Below are positions 2,678 through 16,433 of a DNA stretch of 24,143 nt, in pieces (the stretch's first letter is position 1; the number at the start of each line of letters is the position of its first letter). A program made the position numbers and the translations under genes. This DNA comes from a virus: IMG/VR virus record IMGVR_UViG_3300042889_001072, positions 1 through 24,143 of that record, one strand, 5' to 3'. The notes below the pieces were generated by a model that was not told the origin of the DNA, made no database searches, and was given only the letters and a program-made list of their open reading frames with translations.

Positions 2678-3091
2678 TCAAACTTCCTCTGACCTTCCGT
2701 TCCCGTTGTTCCCGTTGCCGCCATTGTTGCCATTGTCGCCATTGTTCCAATTATTCCCATCAGAGCCATTATTCCCGTTGTTTCCGTTGTCGCCTTTGTC
2801 ACCTTTAGGACCATCTTTGCCATCAGCCCCATCAGCTCCATCAGCTCCGTCTTTGCCATCGGAACCATTTCTTCCATCTCTTCCATCTCTACCATCTCTA
2901 CCGTCAGACCCATCTTTTCCATCTTTACCATCTTTACCAGCCTGACCAGGAGGTCCGGATGGTCCAGAAGGTCCAGAAGGTCCAGGTAGTCCGCAGCAGC
3001 ACTGTTTCTGTCCATCATCGTCATCATCATTATCTTGTAAAATCACTAATCCTGATTGTATGCCAGATTGAACATTAGTTAAATCGGACAT
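2678..3091 (-). CDS. Collagen-like Gly-X-Y repeat protein
   Basis: A 137-residue protein. Residues 1-25 form a leader with a run of five Asp, then a CCCG cluster. About 33 Gly-X-Y triplets follow (GPSGPSGPP, then GKDGKDG, GRDGRDG, GADGADG, then GNNGNNG). Collagen-like triple helices in phages are usually fibre or spike components, and the Asp/Lys/Arg-rich triplets suit salt-bridge stabilisation without hydroxyproline. One Gly is replaced by Trp in the last third (GNN WNN GDN). The ATG lies six bases after the TGA of the Ala-rich gene and in the same frame. It probably encodes an exposed virion fibre. Confidence 0.85.
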   Translation of the reverse strand: MSDLTNVQSGIQSGLVILQDNDDDDDGQKQCCCGLPGPSGPSGPSGPPGQAGKDGKDGKDGSDGRDGRDGRDGRNGSDGKDGADGADGADGKDGPKGDKGDNGNNGNNGSDGNNWNNGDNGNNGGNGNNGNGRSEEV

Positions 3092-4228: not shown

Positions 4229-4834
4229 TTAACGTGGTATACTAGGAGAAACAATATAAATTAGTTCAGACATACCTAATTTAGTTTTGATTTTTATATG
4301 TGATGAATGTGTTTCCACAGTTCTATATGAAATGTTTAATAGTTTTGCTATCTTTTTATGGCAGAATCCTTGTACCAATAATCCAAGAACTTCTTGTTCC
4401 TTTGGTGATAATAGATTTAATAATTCTGTAGCATTAGCAGTTTCAATTAGATGCCTTTTATTGACAATATCTAATAACATACCCTCTTGTAATCTAGAAG
4501 GCAATACCGTATCAATATCAGAATAATCTAGGAAATCGTAAGCACCTAGTTTGAATGCATTAGATGTAACTTTTGTATCGGCATACTCAGATACAAATAT
4601 GAACGGTGAAGTAACGGAACGTATCTTTTCCTTTAAGGATACATTGAATGAGTTTAACAAGTCCATATTTACTATGGTACAAGAGTTCCTAGTTTTGTCG
4701 TACTTGTTAAAATATTCAATTCCAGATGTAAAACTCTTTAAGGCATATCCTAATGAATCTGCCATTGAATTTATTTTATCTTTAATTCTTTCATTATCTG
4801 CAATGAGATAAACTTTCGGTGGTTCTAATATCAT
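4229..4834 (-). CDS. FixJ/LuxR-family response regulator with degenerate receiver
   Basis: A 201-residue protein with two domains. Residues about 7-120 look like a receiver domain (KVYLIADNERI at the start, PFIFVSEYAD, and AFKLGAYDFLDYSD near the end). Residues about 142-195 are a clear LuxR-type helix-turn-helix (LSPKEQEVLGLLVQGFCHKK, then IAKLLNISYRTVETH). The residue expected to be the phosphorylated Asp appears to be Asn56 (TIVNMD), the acidic pair is reduced (AD), and the conserved Lys after DFL is missing. It is therefore probably a phosphorylation-independent DNA-binding regulator of phage or host promoters. AGGGAA precedes the ATG; a hairpin follows the stop. Confidence 0.85.
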   Translation of the reverse strand: MILEPPKVYLIADNERIKDKINSMADSLGYALKSFTSGIEYFNKYDKTRNSCTIVNMDLLNSFNVSLKEKIRSVTSPFIFVSEYADTKVTSNAFKLGAYDFLDYSDIDTVLPSRLQEGMLLDIVNKRHLIETANATELLNLLSPKEQEVLGLLVQGFCHKKIAKLLNISYRTVETHSSHIKIKTKLGMSELIYIVSPSIPR

Positions 4835-4859: not shown

Positions 4860-5261
4860 TCAATTATATGTATATATGCCACACTTCTCTAGGAAATCAA
4901 CACCTGAATGGTCACGGTATTTGTGTTTGTAAAATACTTGGATTATGCCTGCACCATATATCAACTTAGCACAATCAATACACGGAGCGTGGGTAAGAAA
5001 CATAGTTGCTCCATTACCTGATTCATTACTACTAGCCAACTTCATAATTGAATTTGCTTCTGCGTGTATTACTTCAGGTTTGGTTTTATTATTATCATCT
5101 TCACAATTATTATCCCACAATGCAGGTGTGCCATTCCAAGAAAATGATATCACATTATTATTCTTAACAATGACTGCCCCAACTTGTAACCTTTTCGCTC
5201 TTGACATTTTAGCGCACTCTGACGCCAAGTTCATATAGAAATCTATCATTCTGTTATTCAT
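4860..5261 (-). CDS. dCMP deaminase
   Basis: Deoxycytidylate deaminase converts dCMP to dUMP, the substrate of thymidylate synthase. Zinc-site motifs are intact: HAE at residues 67-69 and PCIDC at 93-97 (numbering from the ATG at 5261). MSRAKRLQVGAVIVKNNNVI is the typical family N-terminal segment. With 133 residues it is a compact version. An alternative ATG at 5282 adds seven residues but has no Shine-Dalgarno sequence; the ATG at 5261 has GAGGA only at a long distance (about 14 bases). The start overlaps the end of homing endonuclease A, so its translation signals may have been rebuilt by that insertion. Confidence 0.9.
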   Translation of the reverse strand: MNNRMIDFYMNLASECAKMSRAKRLQVGAVIVKNNNVISFSWNGTPALWDNNCEDDNNKTKPEVIHAEANSIMKLASSNESGNGATMFLTHAPCIDCAKLIYGAGIIQVFYKHKYRDHSGVDFLEKCGIYTYN

Positions 5262-6066
5262 AGTAATGTATTTTATCCTCATTTATATTGTTTAACGCCT
5301 TGTTTATATTATCCTCACCTTCGTAAAATAACCACCCTACATTTTTTCCGTTTTTGGGAGATATACCCTTATTGACATAATTAATAAATCCTGGTCCTTC
5401 AGATAATCCTAACTCATGTAATCTTTCGTTACGTTTACCTAATGTATAATAACACTCACCTGTAGGCGATAGAAATAACCAATATTTTTGTCCATAAGAA
5501 TTCTTGTTTAATCTTAAAGACTCTGCTCTTTTTTGTATAGTTAAATCGCTTTGTTTTTTACCTAAATTAGCATCTCGTAACTTTTCTCTAGTTTCGGCAG
5601 TTACTTCATGCCCTAGTTTACTTTTAGATAATTTATTCCGCATTGTAACGCTTCGCATTTTACCTTTCCAATTAGGAGGAATTGATTTAGGTATTTCGCC
5701 AAGTTCTAATCTTCTTTTCTTTGTATCTTTCATTTTTTGTATAGATTCTGGAGTATCACAAAATCTGGTTCCTCCATTATGTTTGTTTAACCATTCAGGA
5801 TGTTTTGCGGCATCTATTCTAGTCAAAAATCTGGTTTCCCAATATAATGCTTCTATTTTAGATATAAATGTTTTTCGAATTTGGACTGAAAAGGAATCTA
5901 TACCATATTCTTCTATAAGATCGGATATTGTTTTGGAGGAAGTAAAATAGGTTGTCCAAAGTTGATCTGGATGGGCTACTTCTTTTTCGGTATATCTAAC
6001 GCCATAATATCTTTGTCCTGTTGGGATAAAGGTAATACAATAGGCAAAAGGTATATAAATATTCAT
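5254..6066 (-). CDS. GIY-YIG homing endonuclease A
   Basis: A free-standing homing endonuclease of 270 residues. The N-terminal GIY-YIG nuclease domain is recognisable (YCITFIPTGQRYYGVRY, residues 9-25), with a helical continuation to about residue 90. Residues about 130-180 carry NUMOD3-type DNA-binding repeats (GKMRSVTMRNKLSKSKLG, then REKLRDANLGKKQ). The C-terminus is a further DNA-binding module. Such enzymes cut unoccupied alleles and spread their own gene by recombination. It overlaps the dCMP deaminase start and is preceded by a late-type promoter and a structured leader resembling that of endonuclease B. Confidence 0.88.
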   Translation of the reverse strand: MNIYIPFAYCITFIPTGQRYYGVRYTEKEVAHPDQLWTTYFTSSKTISDLIEEYGIDSFSVQIRKTFISKIEALYWETRFLTRIDAAKHPEWLNKHNGGTRFCDTPESIQKMKDTKKRRLELGEIPKSIPPNWKGKMRSVTMRNKLSKSKLGHEVTAETREKLRDANLGKKQSDLTIQKRAESLRLNKNSYGQKYWLFLSPTGECYYTLGKRNERLHELGLSEGPGFINYVNKGISPKNGKNVGWLFYEGEDNINKALNNINEDKIHYYE

Positions 6067-6092
6067 GCTGATACTCCTAGTAAGTTATTAGA

Positions 6093-6134
6093 ATAGGTAG
6101 ATGCTTCCAACATCGTGACCTATAACTATTTATA
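6093..6134 (-). promoter_or_regulatory. Late promoter plus hairpin leader of endonuclease A
   Basis: On the minus strand TATAAATA (6134-6127) is followed by a two-part hairpin. The outer stem is ATAGGT / ACCTAT (6123-6118 with 6098-6093), with an internal bulge CAC opposite T. The inner stem is GATG / CATC around a 7-base loop TTGGAAG. TCTAAT follows the outer stem directly. The same order of parts occurs before endonuclease B with different stem bases, which suggests a conserved RNA structure. Confidence 0.6.
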
Positions 6135-11376: not shown

Positions 11377-11404
11377 TTAACTCAACAAAAAGGAATACTA
11401 AAAT
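11377..11404 (+). repeat. Repeated leader of LPW paralogues, copy 1
   Basis: The leader before paralogue 1 (AACAAAAAGGAATACTAAAA plus about ten bases upstream) matches the leader of paralogue 2 at 11763-11789 with about three differences. It includes AAGGA as the Shine-Dalgarno sequence. It shows that the unit of duplication included the translation start region. Confidence 0.7.
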
Positions 11405-11750
11405 GACAATAACATATACTTGGACTATTACTGGTCTTGAATGTGCAGATCCTGATAGCGATGTTGATTGTGATACAATTAAAGAAGCTACTTGGACTTT
11501 AACTGGAAACGATGGTACTAACACAAGCTCTATTACTGGAAAAACTTCATTAAATATAGTTATGAGCCCAGAAGAAGGGCAAACCCATTCAGATGTGTTT
11601 GCTCTAGTAACTGAAGCAGAAATTATAACCGCAGTACAGACTGTAATGGGCACAGAAAATATTAGTAATATGGAAACAAATATCGCTAATAAACTTACTG
11701 AACTTACTTTACCAGCTTATGTTATCCAAACACTCCCTTGGGTAGTATAA
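11403..11750 (+). CDS. LPW-tail paralogue 1
   Basis: A 115-residue protein. It begins MTITYTWTITGLEC and ends TLPWVV. The order is: an N-terminal strand with Tyr-Thr-Trp, a second strand (EATWTLTGNDG), an insertion strand, then an ALVTEAEIITAVQTVMG helix and a Pro-Trp tail. Marine T4-like phages carry related proteins (which I recall as DUF7936) with the same TYTW start and LPW end; their function is unknown. It is the first of three tandem copies, opposite in strand to all neighbours except endonuclease B. Confidence 0.75.
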   Translation: MTITYTWTITGLECADPDSDVDCDTIKEATWTLTGNDGTNTSSITGKTSLNIVMSPEEGQTHSDVFALVTEAEIITAVQTVMGTENISNMETNIANKLTELTLPAYVIQTLPWVV

Positions 11751-11787: not shown

Positions 11788-12147
11788 ATGACAACATATG
11801 TATGGAAAGTAGATTCACTTGAATGTACAGCTAATCCTGGCTTCTCTTGTACTATAATCAAATCAGCACCTTGGACATTAACTGGTGATGATGGAACTAA
11901 TACAACTTTCATTCAAGGTAATGCACCAATAAACATGACCATGGTCGAAGAAGAGGGTCATGCTGAAGGCGATAGATTTGCAGCACTAACTGAAGCTGAA
12001 GTAATAACTGCTATACAAACCCAGTTAGGAACTGCTATAGTAAATGAATTAGTGGCTCATATTGATAATGAACTTTATGTAAAAACTTTACAAACACCAC
12101 CAGAACTACCTAAAATAATAGTACCACCTTTGCCTTGGGTGGTATAA
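11788..12147 (+). CDS. LPW-tail paralogue 2
   Basis: 119 residues, MTTYVWKVDSLEC to LPWVV. Shared segments with copies 1 and 3: WTLTGDDGTNT, ALTEAEVITAIQTQLG and the tail. It has a Pro-rich insertion before the tail (LQTPPELPKIIVPP) that makes it the longest. Two cysteines near the N-terminus are at positions similar to those in the other copies (one additional Cys in the 'FSC' segment). The leader is nearly identical to that of copy 1, so duplication of 1 and 2 was recent or is kept by gene conversion. Confidence 0.75.
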   Translation: MTTYVWKVDSLECTANPGFSCTIIKSAPWTLTGDDGTNTTFIQGNAPINMTMVEEEGHAEGDRFAALTEAEVITAIQTQLGTAIVNELVAHIDNELYVKTLQTPPELPKIIVPPLPWVV

Positions 12148-12181: not shown

Positions 12182-12529
12182 ATGGCAATAACATATACTT
12201 GGTTAATAACATCAATTGAATGCAACACACCTGATGCTGATGCAGACTGTGATATAATTACATCTGCAAGTTGGAGATTGATTGGAACTGATGGTGATTA
12301 TAGTAGTTTTTCTTTTGGAACTTCTCCATTAAATATAGTTCTAGAAGTAACTCCTGGAACTCTAGAATTAGAAGCATATAATGCTTTAACAGAAGCTGAA
12401 ATGATAACTGCTGTTCAAACTGCTTTAGGTGAAGAACAAATAACATCACTGGAAGCAGAAATAGCTGAACGAATCCAACAACAAGTTGCTCCAACTACTA
12501 TTTCTCCACCTTTACCTTGGGTAGTTTAA
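12182..12529 (+). CDS. LPW-tail paralogue 3
   Basis: 115 residues, MAITYTWLITSIEC to LPWVV. Shared elements are SASWRLIGTDG, ALTEAEMITAVQTALG and the Pro-rich PPLPWVV end. It is the most divergent of the three in the central strands. Its TAA lies directly against the stop of the displaced thyA tail on the other strand, so it marks the left edge of the thyA region. The three-copy cluster may supply a decoration or adaptor protein in variants, which is inference only. Confidence 0.75.
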   Translation: MAITYTWLITSIECNTPDADADCDIITSASWRLIGTDGDYSSFSFGTSPLNIVLEVTPGTLELEAYNALTEAEMITAVQTALGEEQITSLEAEIAERIQQQVAPTTISPPLPWVV

Positions 12530-12747: not shown

Positions 12748-12793
12748 TATAAATAGTAATAGGCGTTAGTCACGGTGGTCAAGACCTACTAAC
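12748..12793 (+). promoter_or_regulatory. Late promoter plus hairpin leader of endonuclease B
   Basis: TATAAATA (12748-12755) is followed by an outer stem GTTAGT (12765-12770) / ACTAAC (12788-12793), an internal bulge CAC opposite T, an inner stem GGT / ACC and a 7-base loop GGTCAAG. TCTAAT comes directly after the outer stem, as at endonuclease A. The stems differ in sequence but keep pairing between the two loci. Confidence 0.6.
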
Positions 12794-12827
12794 TCTAATC
12801 ATTCTACTATTAATTACAGGAACTAAT

Positions 12828-13724
12828 ATGACCAGCAACATTATATATAATAGTGGTATTTATGCCATAGTAAATAAAAAATCAGGTCGTTCTTATATTG
12901 GATCGTCTATAAATATAGAAAAACGATGGAAATCCCACTTAAGAACCTTAAGAAAAAACACACACCACAATATATTTCTACAAAGAGCATTCAACAAATA
13001 TGGAGAAATTATTTTTGGATTCTCATACCTAGGAATAATGATAACACCAACTCAAGAAGAATTATTTGAGTCAGAACAATCCCACATACATAAATGTCCA
13101 CATAAACTATATAATTTAGGTAGTGTTGGTGGCGGAAATAACCTTACTAATCATCCAAATAAAGATGATATTAGGCAAAGAATCATCAACACCAATCGTA
13201 ATAATAATGCTCAATTATCAACAGAAGAGCTCTCTGAAAAATATGGTCGTTGTGGTTCAGAAAACGGCAATTATAGGGGTGGAATTGGGTTCAATAGTTT
13301 TCATTATTGTTCAATTTGTAATATATCAGTTATATCCGATTCTGCCAAAGTATGCACGAATTGTCGGGACAGAAATGGTGTCAATAATCCTTTCTATGGT
13401 AAAACTCACTCTAAAGAAACTCTTGAAAAATTAAGAATCTCAAATATAGGAAGAACTAAATCTCAATATGAAATAGGTTCTATATCTGGGGAAAATTCTA
13501 GTAAATTTAAAGGGTATTATCATACACCGTGGGGAATATTTCCAGCATCTAATCAAGCAAAATCTGCCCATTCATATATGTCAGTTGTAACTATAACTAG
13601 ATGGTGTGAATATCCAGATAACGATATTGTTAGATTAGGAGCATCAAAATACCTGCAAGAGATAGGTCCTTCTGTTATAGGAAAGACCTATCGTGAACTA
13701 GGATTTTCATTTACTCCAAAATAA
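12828..13724 (+). CDS. GIY-YIG homing endonuclease B (I-TevI-like)
   Basis: A 298-residue homing endonuclease. The GIY-YIG nuclease domain is at the N-terminus (GIYAIVNKKSGRSYIGSSIN, residues 10-29), followed by EKRWKSH with the conserved Arg and His and a later Glu region (ELFESEQ). A zinc-finger-like CSIC...CTNC (Cys161, 164, 176, 179) separates it from a NUMOD3 DNA-binding segment (YGKTHSKETLEKLRISNIG), a layout like phage T4 I-TevI. It lies tail-to-tail with thyA with two bases between the stops, and on its other side is the displaced thyA tail. The likely target is therefore thyA near the YKNH codons. Confidence 0.9.
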   Translation: MTSNIIYNSGIYAIVNKKSGRSYIGSSINIEKRWKSHLRTLRKNTHHNIFLQRAFNKYGEIIFGFSYLGIMITPTQEELFESEQSHIHKCPHKLYNLGSVGGGNNLTNHPNKDDIRQRIINTNRNNNAQLSTEELSEKYGRCGSENGNYRGGIGFNSFHYCSICNISVISDSAKVCTNCRDRNGVNNPFYGKTHSKETLEKLRISNIGRTKSQYEIGSISGENSSKFKGYYHTPWGIFPASNQAKSAHSYMSVVTITRWCEYPDNDIVRLGASKYLQEIGPSVIGKTYRELGFSFTPK

Positions 13725-16124: not shown

Positions 16125-16433
16125 TTAATTTAGTATATCGACAAGTATTTTTCTAATTGCTAAGTTTTCTTGCATTGATATGTTTTTATACCTCATATCT
16201 TCTCTTATCTCTTTAACAAAGAAAGTCCTATTAATTTCTACATTCATTTTGTATGTGGCGTTATTGAGTATTTGTCTAGCTCTTTGACCAGTTATATTTT
16301 TAAGTCTTCCAATCTCAGTAGTACCTAGATTGTCAAAGTAGTGGAGAGTAAAAACATTTAGCTGATTATCATTAAGAACGTGTTTAAATTTCTCAATGAT
16401 ATATTTCTTATCCATTCTAGTATCAAGTTTCAT
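16125..16433 (-). CDS. Helix-turn-helix protein, sigma region 4-like
   Basis: 102 residues. The segment around LNDNQLNVFTLHYFDNLGTT, EIGRLKNITGQRARQILNNA resembles the region 4 helix-turn-helix of sigma70-type factors (hydrophobic core, LGTTEIG turn, recognition helix GQRARQIL). No region 2 or 3 is present, so it cannot act as a full sigma factor. It could be a promoter-specific transcription regulator. It has its own sigma70-like promoter directly upstream. An alternative internal ATG would remove six residues. Confidence 0.6.
   Translation of the reverse strand: MKLDTRMDKKYIIEKFKHVLNDNQLNVFTLHYFDNLGTTEIGRLKNITGQRARQILNNATYKMNVEINRTFFVKEIREDMRYKNISMQENLAIRKILVDILN

Follow-up and report, generated by a model that had tools for sequence, protein, structure and literature searches.

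A portable element folded opposite the starts of phage homing-endonuclease genes: a candidate antisense switch

Selfish homing-endonuclease genes are common in T4-like phages, and there is no general understanding of what stops new insertions of them from harming the phage. The locus studied here raises the matter in a concrete form: why do two different endonuclease genes of one phage begin behind the same promoter and the same hairpin leader, and which strand carries the hairpin?

Two copies of one leader in a T4-like phage

The window, by which we mean the whole stretch of DNA analysed, is 24,143 nt long (IMG/VR virus record IMGVR_UViG_3300042889_001072, positions 1 to 24,143), and its genes read as those of a T4-like phage. 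Its RNase H-like exonuclease shares about 40% identity with its nearest relatives, from Pelagibacter, Methylophilales and Synechococcus T4-like phages, and DNA ligase, thymidylate synthase and dihydrofolate reductase are also encoded. The two copies of the leader, A and B, have the following features, where R2 is a model of the strand antisense to the endonuclease, built without promoter or start codon and with copy A absent from the rows of its alignment.

5254 to 6066, minus strand: endonuclease gene A, 270 aa, SegE-type GIY-YIG (PF19835, E 2.6e-9; phrog_314 homing endonuclease, E 9.4e-18)
6054 to 6061, plus strand: copy A antisense late-type box, a perfect TATAAATA over codons 3-5 of gene A (exact match; putative promoter)
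6067 to 6123, plus strand: copy A structured core, antisense to gene A, in the order G-P3(8 bp)-A-P1(6 bp)-R-P2(4 bp)-loop-P2'-GUG-P1' (R2, 53.2 bits, E 1.1e-11)
6067 to 6091, plus strand: copy A P3 hairpin, whose loop contains the complement of the Shine-Dalgarno sequence (6074-6078, minus strand)
6093 to 6123, plus strand: copy A P1/P2 hairpin, the one first described, on the opposite strand
6127 to 6134, minus strand: copy A sense late-promoter box TATAAATA (exact match)
12748 to 12755, plus strand: copy B sense late-promoter box TATAAATA (exact match)
12765 to 12793, minus strand: copy B P1/P2 hairpin
12765 to 12836, minus strand: copy B structured core, antisense to gene B (R2, 35.1 bits, E 4.3e-7)
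12828 to 13724, plus strand: endonuclease gene B, 298 aa, GIY-YIG with NUMOD3 (PF01541, E 2e-9; PF07460, E 6.7e-6)
12842 to 12848, minus strand: copy B antisense box, TATATAT on the gene strand

A preliminary description of this DNA had noted the shared leader, and all of its parts are present as written: both copies run in the order TATAAATA, outer stem, CAC, inner stem, 7-base loop ending AAG, T, closing stem and TCTAA. It had also called the two proteins different members of the GIY-YIG family, which agrees with the SegE type of A and the GIY-YIG plus NUMOD3 architecture of B; the few viral relatives recovered by peptide search (2 for protein A, 5 for protein B) were of little use. The antisense box of copy A ends 5 nt before the antisense core. 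Copy B has a long P3 loop with the Shine-Dalgarno sequence inside it and the ATG start codon within the P3 stem, and its antisense box lies 5 nt from CAGC, though the start codon is upstream of CAGC. Within the window, TATAAATA occurs 7 times against 5.36 expected. Compared with shuffled sequences, the full leaders fold no better (z -0.42 for A, -0.43 for B), and the trimmed hairpins give z -2.27 for A and -0.49 for B. Taken from the window alone, the two leaders are hardly above chance, and it is related sequences that settle whether the structure is real.

Several other genes of the window deserve mention. Two DUF7936 genes (11403-11750 and 12182-12529, plus strand), with a similar-looking ORF between them (11788-12147), form a tandem array just before copy B. 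An ORF at 2678-3091 (minus strand) has a long collagen-like G-X-X repeat rich in GKD/GAD and is overlapped by a frame-shifted ORF. The receiver-plus-LuxR-type regulator at 4229-4834 (minus strand; GerE, E 1e-11) is, to our knowledge, unusual in a T4-like phage, and a short protein at 16125-16433 (minus strand) weakly matches the phage sigma-factor family phrog_351, possibly representing the late sigma factor gp55 of this phage.

Recurrence of the element and the strand that folds

Successive patterns were searched against IMG/VR. The first, holding only the promoter and GTCACG parts, matched 19 stretches, 10 of which have the same leader (L012-L014, L020, L021, L023-L025 and L028 were left out as chance matches), and the second matched at least 120 (chance matches L045, L059 and L121 left out). 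Among the matches listed through the third pattern, which fixes no base of any P1, P2 or P3 pair, the stems are present in 130 of 132 distinct sequences; L159 and L226 were dropped as chance matches. The fourth pattern omits the promoter and the entire first hairpin, and P1 is present in 189 of its 191 distinct sequences; the fifth, using the Aeh1-like box CTAAATA, gave P1 in 103 of 104 distinct sequences, L476 being dropped as a chance match. With near-identical repeats merged before counting, here as for the R2 hits and antisense-box offsets below, the 55-bp element with a late box outside it occurs as at least 362 distinct elements in many T4-like phage contigs. The outcomes named beforehand as fatal to the leader, a lack of further matches or broken pairing, are not what these elements present, their stems being kept.

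A search of 20 whole element-bearing records with R2 found 65 places, 57 of them distinct, with a maximum of 13 in a 361 kb record and 12 in a 142 kb record. R1, run over 18 other records, found 40 places in 17, the eighteenth being the record of the chance locus L159. Across 12 whole named genomes of cultured T4-like phages (T4, Aeh1, S-PM2 and nine others), R2 gave nothing at E below 0.1, and blastn of cultured phages with two leader queries returned short chance matches only. Bacterial and archaeal genomes yielded a single pattern match, which R2 did not recognise.

On the gene strand, a spacer of 3 to 5 bases separates the late box from P1 (6 bp); then come C(A/G)C, P2 (4 bp) with a loop of 6 bases, a single pyrimidine and P1', followed by TCTAA, a 4-bp stem around the Shine-Dalgarno sequence, pyrimidine, CAGC, ATG and NNTATWTAT. 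The P3 hairpin holding the Shine-Dalgarno sequence and the conserved sequence through CAGC, ATG and codons 3-5 go beyond the preliminary description. The antisense strand forms two adjacent hairpins, one of 8 bp and one of 6+4 bp; P3 has 4 bp on the gene strand but reaches 8 bp here, where CAGC and TCTAA add the pairing of CUGR with UUAG. The Gs of GYG and the linker A are invariant unpaired bases of that strand. In the long-loop form, the class of copy B with 12 elements (one of which, L135, can be read either way), the start codon lies inside the P3 stem, before CAGC.

The elements show further regularities. In 96% of 354 elements, P1 is directly preceded on the gene strand by a T that belongs to none of the known pairs, so that an A follows P1 on the antisense strand. 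Positions 1 and 6 of the P2 loop (gene strand) avoid Watson-Crick combinations, with C.A 45, T.G 37, T.A 6 and C.G 1 of 101, as though each strand needed a pair of wobble shape there. The spacing from sense late box to P1 is bimodal, most often 5 nt (159 of 354), nearly as often 3 nt (149) and rarely 4 nt (22). In G006, the record of L094, three copies share an identical P2 and loop, yet each has a P1 stem of its own.

In the first 29 leaders, 91 changes were two-sided and none was one-sided. RNA helices ordinarily pass through one-sided changes to G.U, which makes the absence of such intermediates odd. We present the pairs by strand; every A.C combination becomes G.U when the complementary strand is read. 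Counted on the gene strand in 334 elements, whose detection fixed no paired base of P1 or P2 and from which four cores with 0-2 paired P1 bases were dropped, the 2004 P1 cells comprise 1959 Watson-Crick, 43 A.C, 1 G.U and 1 other, and the 1002 cells of the outer three P2 pairs comprise 994 Watson-Crick, 7 A.C, no G.U and 1 other. The A.C combinations are spread over 25 different P1 sequences. The tRNAs of the same contigs have G.U in 8.1% of their pairs (361/4444 by ARAGORN, a control valid for G.U alone, ARAGORN brackets containing no A.C pair), so the near-zero G.U of the gene strand is not a local habit.

Read on the antisense strand, 60 diverse elements give 960 Watson-Crick, 110 G.U, 3 A.C and 7 other among 1080 cells, that is 99.1% paired, while the same columns are 89.2% paired on the gene strand. 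One P3 position keeps G.U in 60/60 elements, and each of the next two has G.U in 20/60. The minimum free energy is lower on the antisense strand in 128/130 and 59/60 elements, and RNAalifold gives -22.7 kcal/mol for the antisense strand against -14.9 kcal/mol for the gene strand. The preliminary description was right that the stems covary, with 262 cells changed on both sides and 14 of 18 pairs covarying in the antisense alignment, and no shuffle or slide control came near the real alignment in pairing or in two-sided cells; the strand it had chosen did not stand, the fold being kept on the opposite one. From wobble polarity, the 8-bp P3 and the pairing, the conserved fold therefore belongs to the strand antisense to the endonuclease, and we regard both the reality of the fold and its strand as very probable.

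This bears directly on the earlier proposal that a hairpin in the endonuclease mRNA leader controls translation or stability. The sense late box and the Shine-Dalgarno sequence are in place, P1/P2 is foldable on the gene strand too, and I-TevI and mobE of T4-type phages hide the Shine-Dalgarno sequence in sense hairpins, according to excerpts of PMC2988022 and PMC3014915. Set against these points are the common A.C and almost absent G.U of the gene strand, beside the tRNA level of G.U, and the halved P3; moreover, long-loop elements shift the Shine-Dalgarno sequence and start codon within the fold, yet the fold is kept. Because the wobble pattern shows selection for folding of the complementary strand, an I-TevI-type hairpin is not what the sequences preserve. 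As a selected fold the sense hairpin is largely refuted by these comparisons, and we consider control through it very improbable.

Two other structures were tried and rejected. A cruciform, with both strands folded together, has no preferred strand and would give equal A.C and G.U. An outer helix joining TATAAATA to codons 3-5 in a three-way junction is complementary, but its flanking pairs show no covariation (-13/ATG+12, p 0.25; -14/ATG+13, p 0.82; -15/ATG+14, p 0.20), and it formed in just 76 of 150 minimum free energy folds; the association at -12/ATG+11 (p 0.0005) mirrors two promoter lineages.

On the antisense strand, G.U makes up about 2% of P1 and 0.7% of P2, less than in the tRNAs, which might reflect some constraint on the gene strand too or a molecule that is DNA. 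In the latter case the folded strand would function as DNA in single-stranded form, its hairpin on the template strand being a site for a phage recombination, replication or transcription protein. The rarity of wobble in P1/P2 even on the folded strand would fit such a site, G.T is better tolerated than A.C in DNA too, and the module moves, with recombination at the leader. Against it, the G.U fixed in P3, with its two frequent neighbours, would be odd for a DNA hairpin, and the element occupies precisely the interval from late box to start codon. We regard a DNA site as unlikely; the folded molecule is probably RNA.

Facing late boxes and the genes behind them

A late promoter had been claimed for both genes, and the wider set agrees: a sense box of the form [N][AC]TAAATA, T4-type late promoter sequence, stands at 55 of the 57 distinct hits of R2. 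Among 338 boxes in 354 elements (a count that includes the fourth-pattern loci), TATAAATA occurs 168 times, ACTAAATA 65, GATAAATA 46 and GCTAAATA 30, and 92 of 103 boxes in the CTAAATA set have A or G followed by C, the Aeh1 form. According to excerpts of PMC2988020, T4 late promoters consist of an 8-bp box placed roughly a helical turn ahead of the start; nine of fifty sites have A at -13, and Aeh1 has a/gC at -13/-12. The S-PM2 form is NATAAATA in those of PMC2984593. The sense box N[AC]TAAATA thus covers the T4 TATAAATA, S-PM2 NATAAATA and Aeh1 a/gCTAAATA forms. What differs from the known arrangement is that a second box of the same type faces the first from inside the gene.

The second box is visible in codon usage, counted with fourth-pattern loci left out, as they were from the antisense offsets, where the pattern fixed the tested bases. 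Among 167 genes with Ile-Tyr at codons 3-4, codon 2 ends in T in all 167 (91.6 expected from synonymous usage), ATC is used at codon 3 in none (15.6% elsewhere), and TAC is used at codon 4 in 13 (26.5% elsewhere). Judged by these frequencies, codons 2-4 are constrained at the nucleotide level, and their antisense reading is NATAWATA. The antisense box lies 5 nt from the core in 185/270 ordinary elements and in 12/12 long-loop elements; in the latter, it is the distance to CAGC that is kept, though the start codon precedes CAGC. Where extra bases follow CAGC, the box tracks the start codon instead in some genes (offset 8 in 4/13 'other' elements).

Of 155 elements whose outer box is TATAAATA, 27 have T at -9 of the inner box, which then reads TATATAT on the gene strand, whereas the outer box has A at -9 in 56/57 R2 hits. 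In the CTAAATA lineage the inner box is ATAAATA or GTAAATA and never CTAAATA, a lineage test that is confounded because CTAAATA would there place an in-frame TAG. The whole pattern is as would be expected of two convergent late promoters, with transcripts starting at the two ends of the fold. That the antisense RNA has its own late promoter, looser in sequence than the outer one, seems to us somewhat favoured. A search for a good terminator after P1/P2 on the antisense strand found none, with 6.2 U in 12 nt and a longest U run of 3 in 298/354 elements.

An ORF of at least 60 aa is present at 54 of the 57 distinct R2 hits, and 339 of the 362 elements have an ORF directly downstream, within 60 nt. 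The remaining 23 are without an ORF of at least 40 aa in that distance, and several of them have GTG starts, contig ends or decayed genes; L037, for example, keeps the element and has lost most of the gene seen in L036. In the 150 longest of 285 nonredundant ORFs, Pfam found NUMOD3 in 62, GIY-YIG in 17, HNH in 14, HNH_3 in 12, SegE in 10, HNH_5 in 10 and an MTES_1575 REase in 1, these counts overlapping. The other 135, shorter ORFs were sorted by crude motifs only, which divide all 285 into 160 GIY-YIG-like, 38 HNH-like and 87 neither; many of the 87 show NUMOD-like repeats or HNH-like motifs by eye. The downstream genes are thus of the free-standing homing-endonuclease type, with a GIY-YIG, HNH or related domain and often NUMOD. 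A 532-aa protein behind the element in L358 (1715-3313, minus strand) combines an MTES_1575/Vsr-like nuclease domain with DUF7487, a third nuclease fold behind the same leader.

Related sites were compared. L080 and L074 have flanks 73% identical and an identical leader, in front of an HNH-like gene in one and a GIY-YIG-like gene in the other; L162 and L161 occupy a common site (flank 88% identical) and differ in gene and P2; L054 and L042 have the same gene but not the same site, and their homology starts again at the late box, from its first base. From these alignments, the module moves with its gene or stays in place while the gene is swapped. The view of the preliminary description that the leader is a transferable module specific to homing-endonuclease-like genes is borne out, since it precedes different nuclease families and moves with the gene.

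The antisense-strand RNA might instead act in trans, on other mRNAs or as the RNA partner of the nuclease, rather than on its own gene. Its strong structure and the invariant unpaired bases suggest a binding partner, and loops may be identical within one genome. The RNA is, however, hardly found without an endonuclease gene, and the genes come from unrelated nuclease families, so one RNA is unlikely to be a partner for all of them. We judge action in trans improbable. In broader terms, a portable structured RNA shared and needed by unrelated homing endonucleases (for example an RNA or RNP timing or licensing homing in trans), or else a site on the template strand that folds in single-stranded form and couples the nuclease cassette to replication and late transcription, is an unlikely account of the element.

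Alternatively, both strands could matter, the mRNA leader and the antisense RNA folding into complementary hairpins that work as a matched pair, in the manner of the antisense systems that control plasmid copy number. The almost pure Watson-Crick P1/P2 would suit folding of both strands, with P3 kept on the antisense strand only. The loops of copies within one genome are not diversified, however: P2 loops are identical in 3/58 pairs within a genome and 26/3683 between genomes. Copy-specific recognition is not supported, since the loops are no more distinct within one genome than between, and we find a matched pair quite improbable.

Proposed working and known systems

The reading that we prefer, by a narrow balance, is that the element encodes a structured cis-antisense RNA that represses its endonuclease and is flanked by two facing late boxes. 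The conservation, the fold and its strand, the link to endonucleases and the sense late box can all be read from sequence. The fold selected on the strand opposite the gene covers the Shine-Dalgarno sequence, and the element looks like a portable antisense switch travelling with selfish nuclease genes.

In the proposed working, the outer box would drive the endonuclease mRNA, with its first bases at or in P1, and from the inner box in codons 3-5 the antisense RNA would begin with the G of GCUG, immediately ahead of the start codon. This RNA would be the complement of practically the entire 5' leader of that mRNA and would fold into the 8-bp P3 with its anti-Shine-Dalgarno loop, then the P1/P2 hairpin with the conserved R/GYG internal loop. 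By pairing with the mRNA leader it could block ribosome loading or mark the mRNA for RNase cleavage, keeping the nuclease low even late in infection, and element and gene would move between sites as a unit. We infer the existence of the folded strand as RNA, the promoter role of the inner box and the repression from the arrangement of the parts, and we put repression of the neighbouring gene at about an even chance.

If the proposal is true, one recurring antisense RNA cassette placed on unrelated nuclease families would be a general answer to the restraint of new insertions, and the element would be a new RNA family, absent from Rfam 15; wobble-pair polarity alone would have revealed a functional strand opposite an annotated gene. 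As a marker, R2 finds these genes, decayed ones included, without protein sequence. In the window and in six other loci, the element matched no Rfam 15 covariance model, and no such element is described in excerpts of the open-licence literature on homing endonucleases, phage antisense RNA and structured metagenome RNAs.

Three known systems invite comparison. IS10 RNA-OUT is an antisense RNA over the transposase start. Like the RNA proposed here, it is short, structured and placed opposite the point where translation of a mobile-element nuclease begins, and is expected to limit expression of that nuclease. The present element differs in its convergent phage late boxes, its two hairpins with a conserved internal loop and its unrelated nucleases, and its activity is putative.

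Hairpins that hide the ribosome-binding site are described for I-TevI, I-TevII, I-TevIII, segB and Aeh1 mobE in the same excerpts of PMC2988022 and PMC3014915. There too an RNA structure lies at the start of a T4-type homing-endonuclease gene with a late promoter adjoining; those hairpins are on the sense strand, whereas here the conserved fold is on the complementary strand and common to many families. In T4, R2 had no match at E up to 5, and in Aeh1 it reached no significance (E 0.15).

Closest in setting is CfrI of S-PM2 (Millard 2010), an antisense RNA that lies at a homing-endonuclease gene and, in excerpts of PMC2984593 and PMC12197685, is proposed to take part in the regulation of that gene; because of CfrI, antisense RNA at such a gene has a precedent in T4-like phages. 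R2 found no match in S-PM2 (NC_006820) at E up to 5, and the element is not homologous to CfrI. As described in those papers, CfrI is about 225 nt long and links one homing-endonuclease gene to psbA, whereas the present fold covaries, spans 55 nt and is found again and again in front of endonuclease genes that are unrelated.
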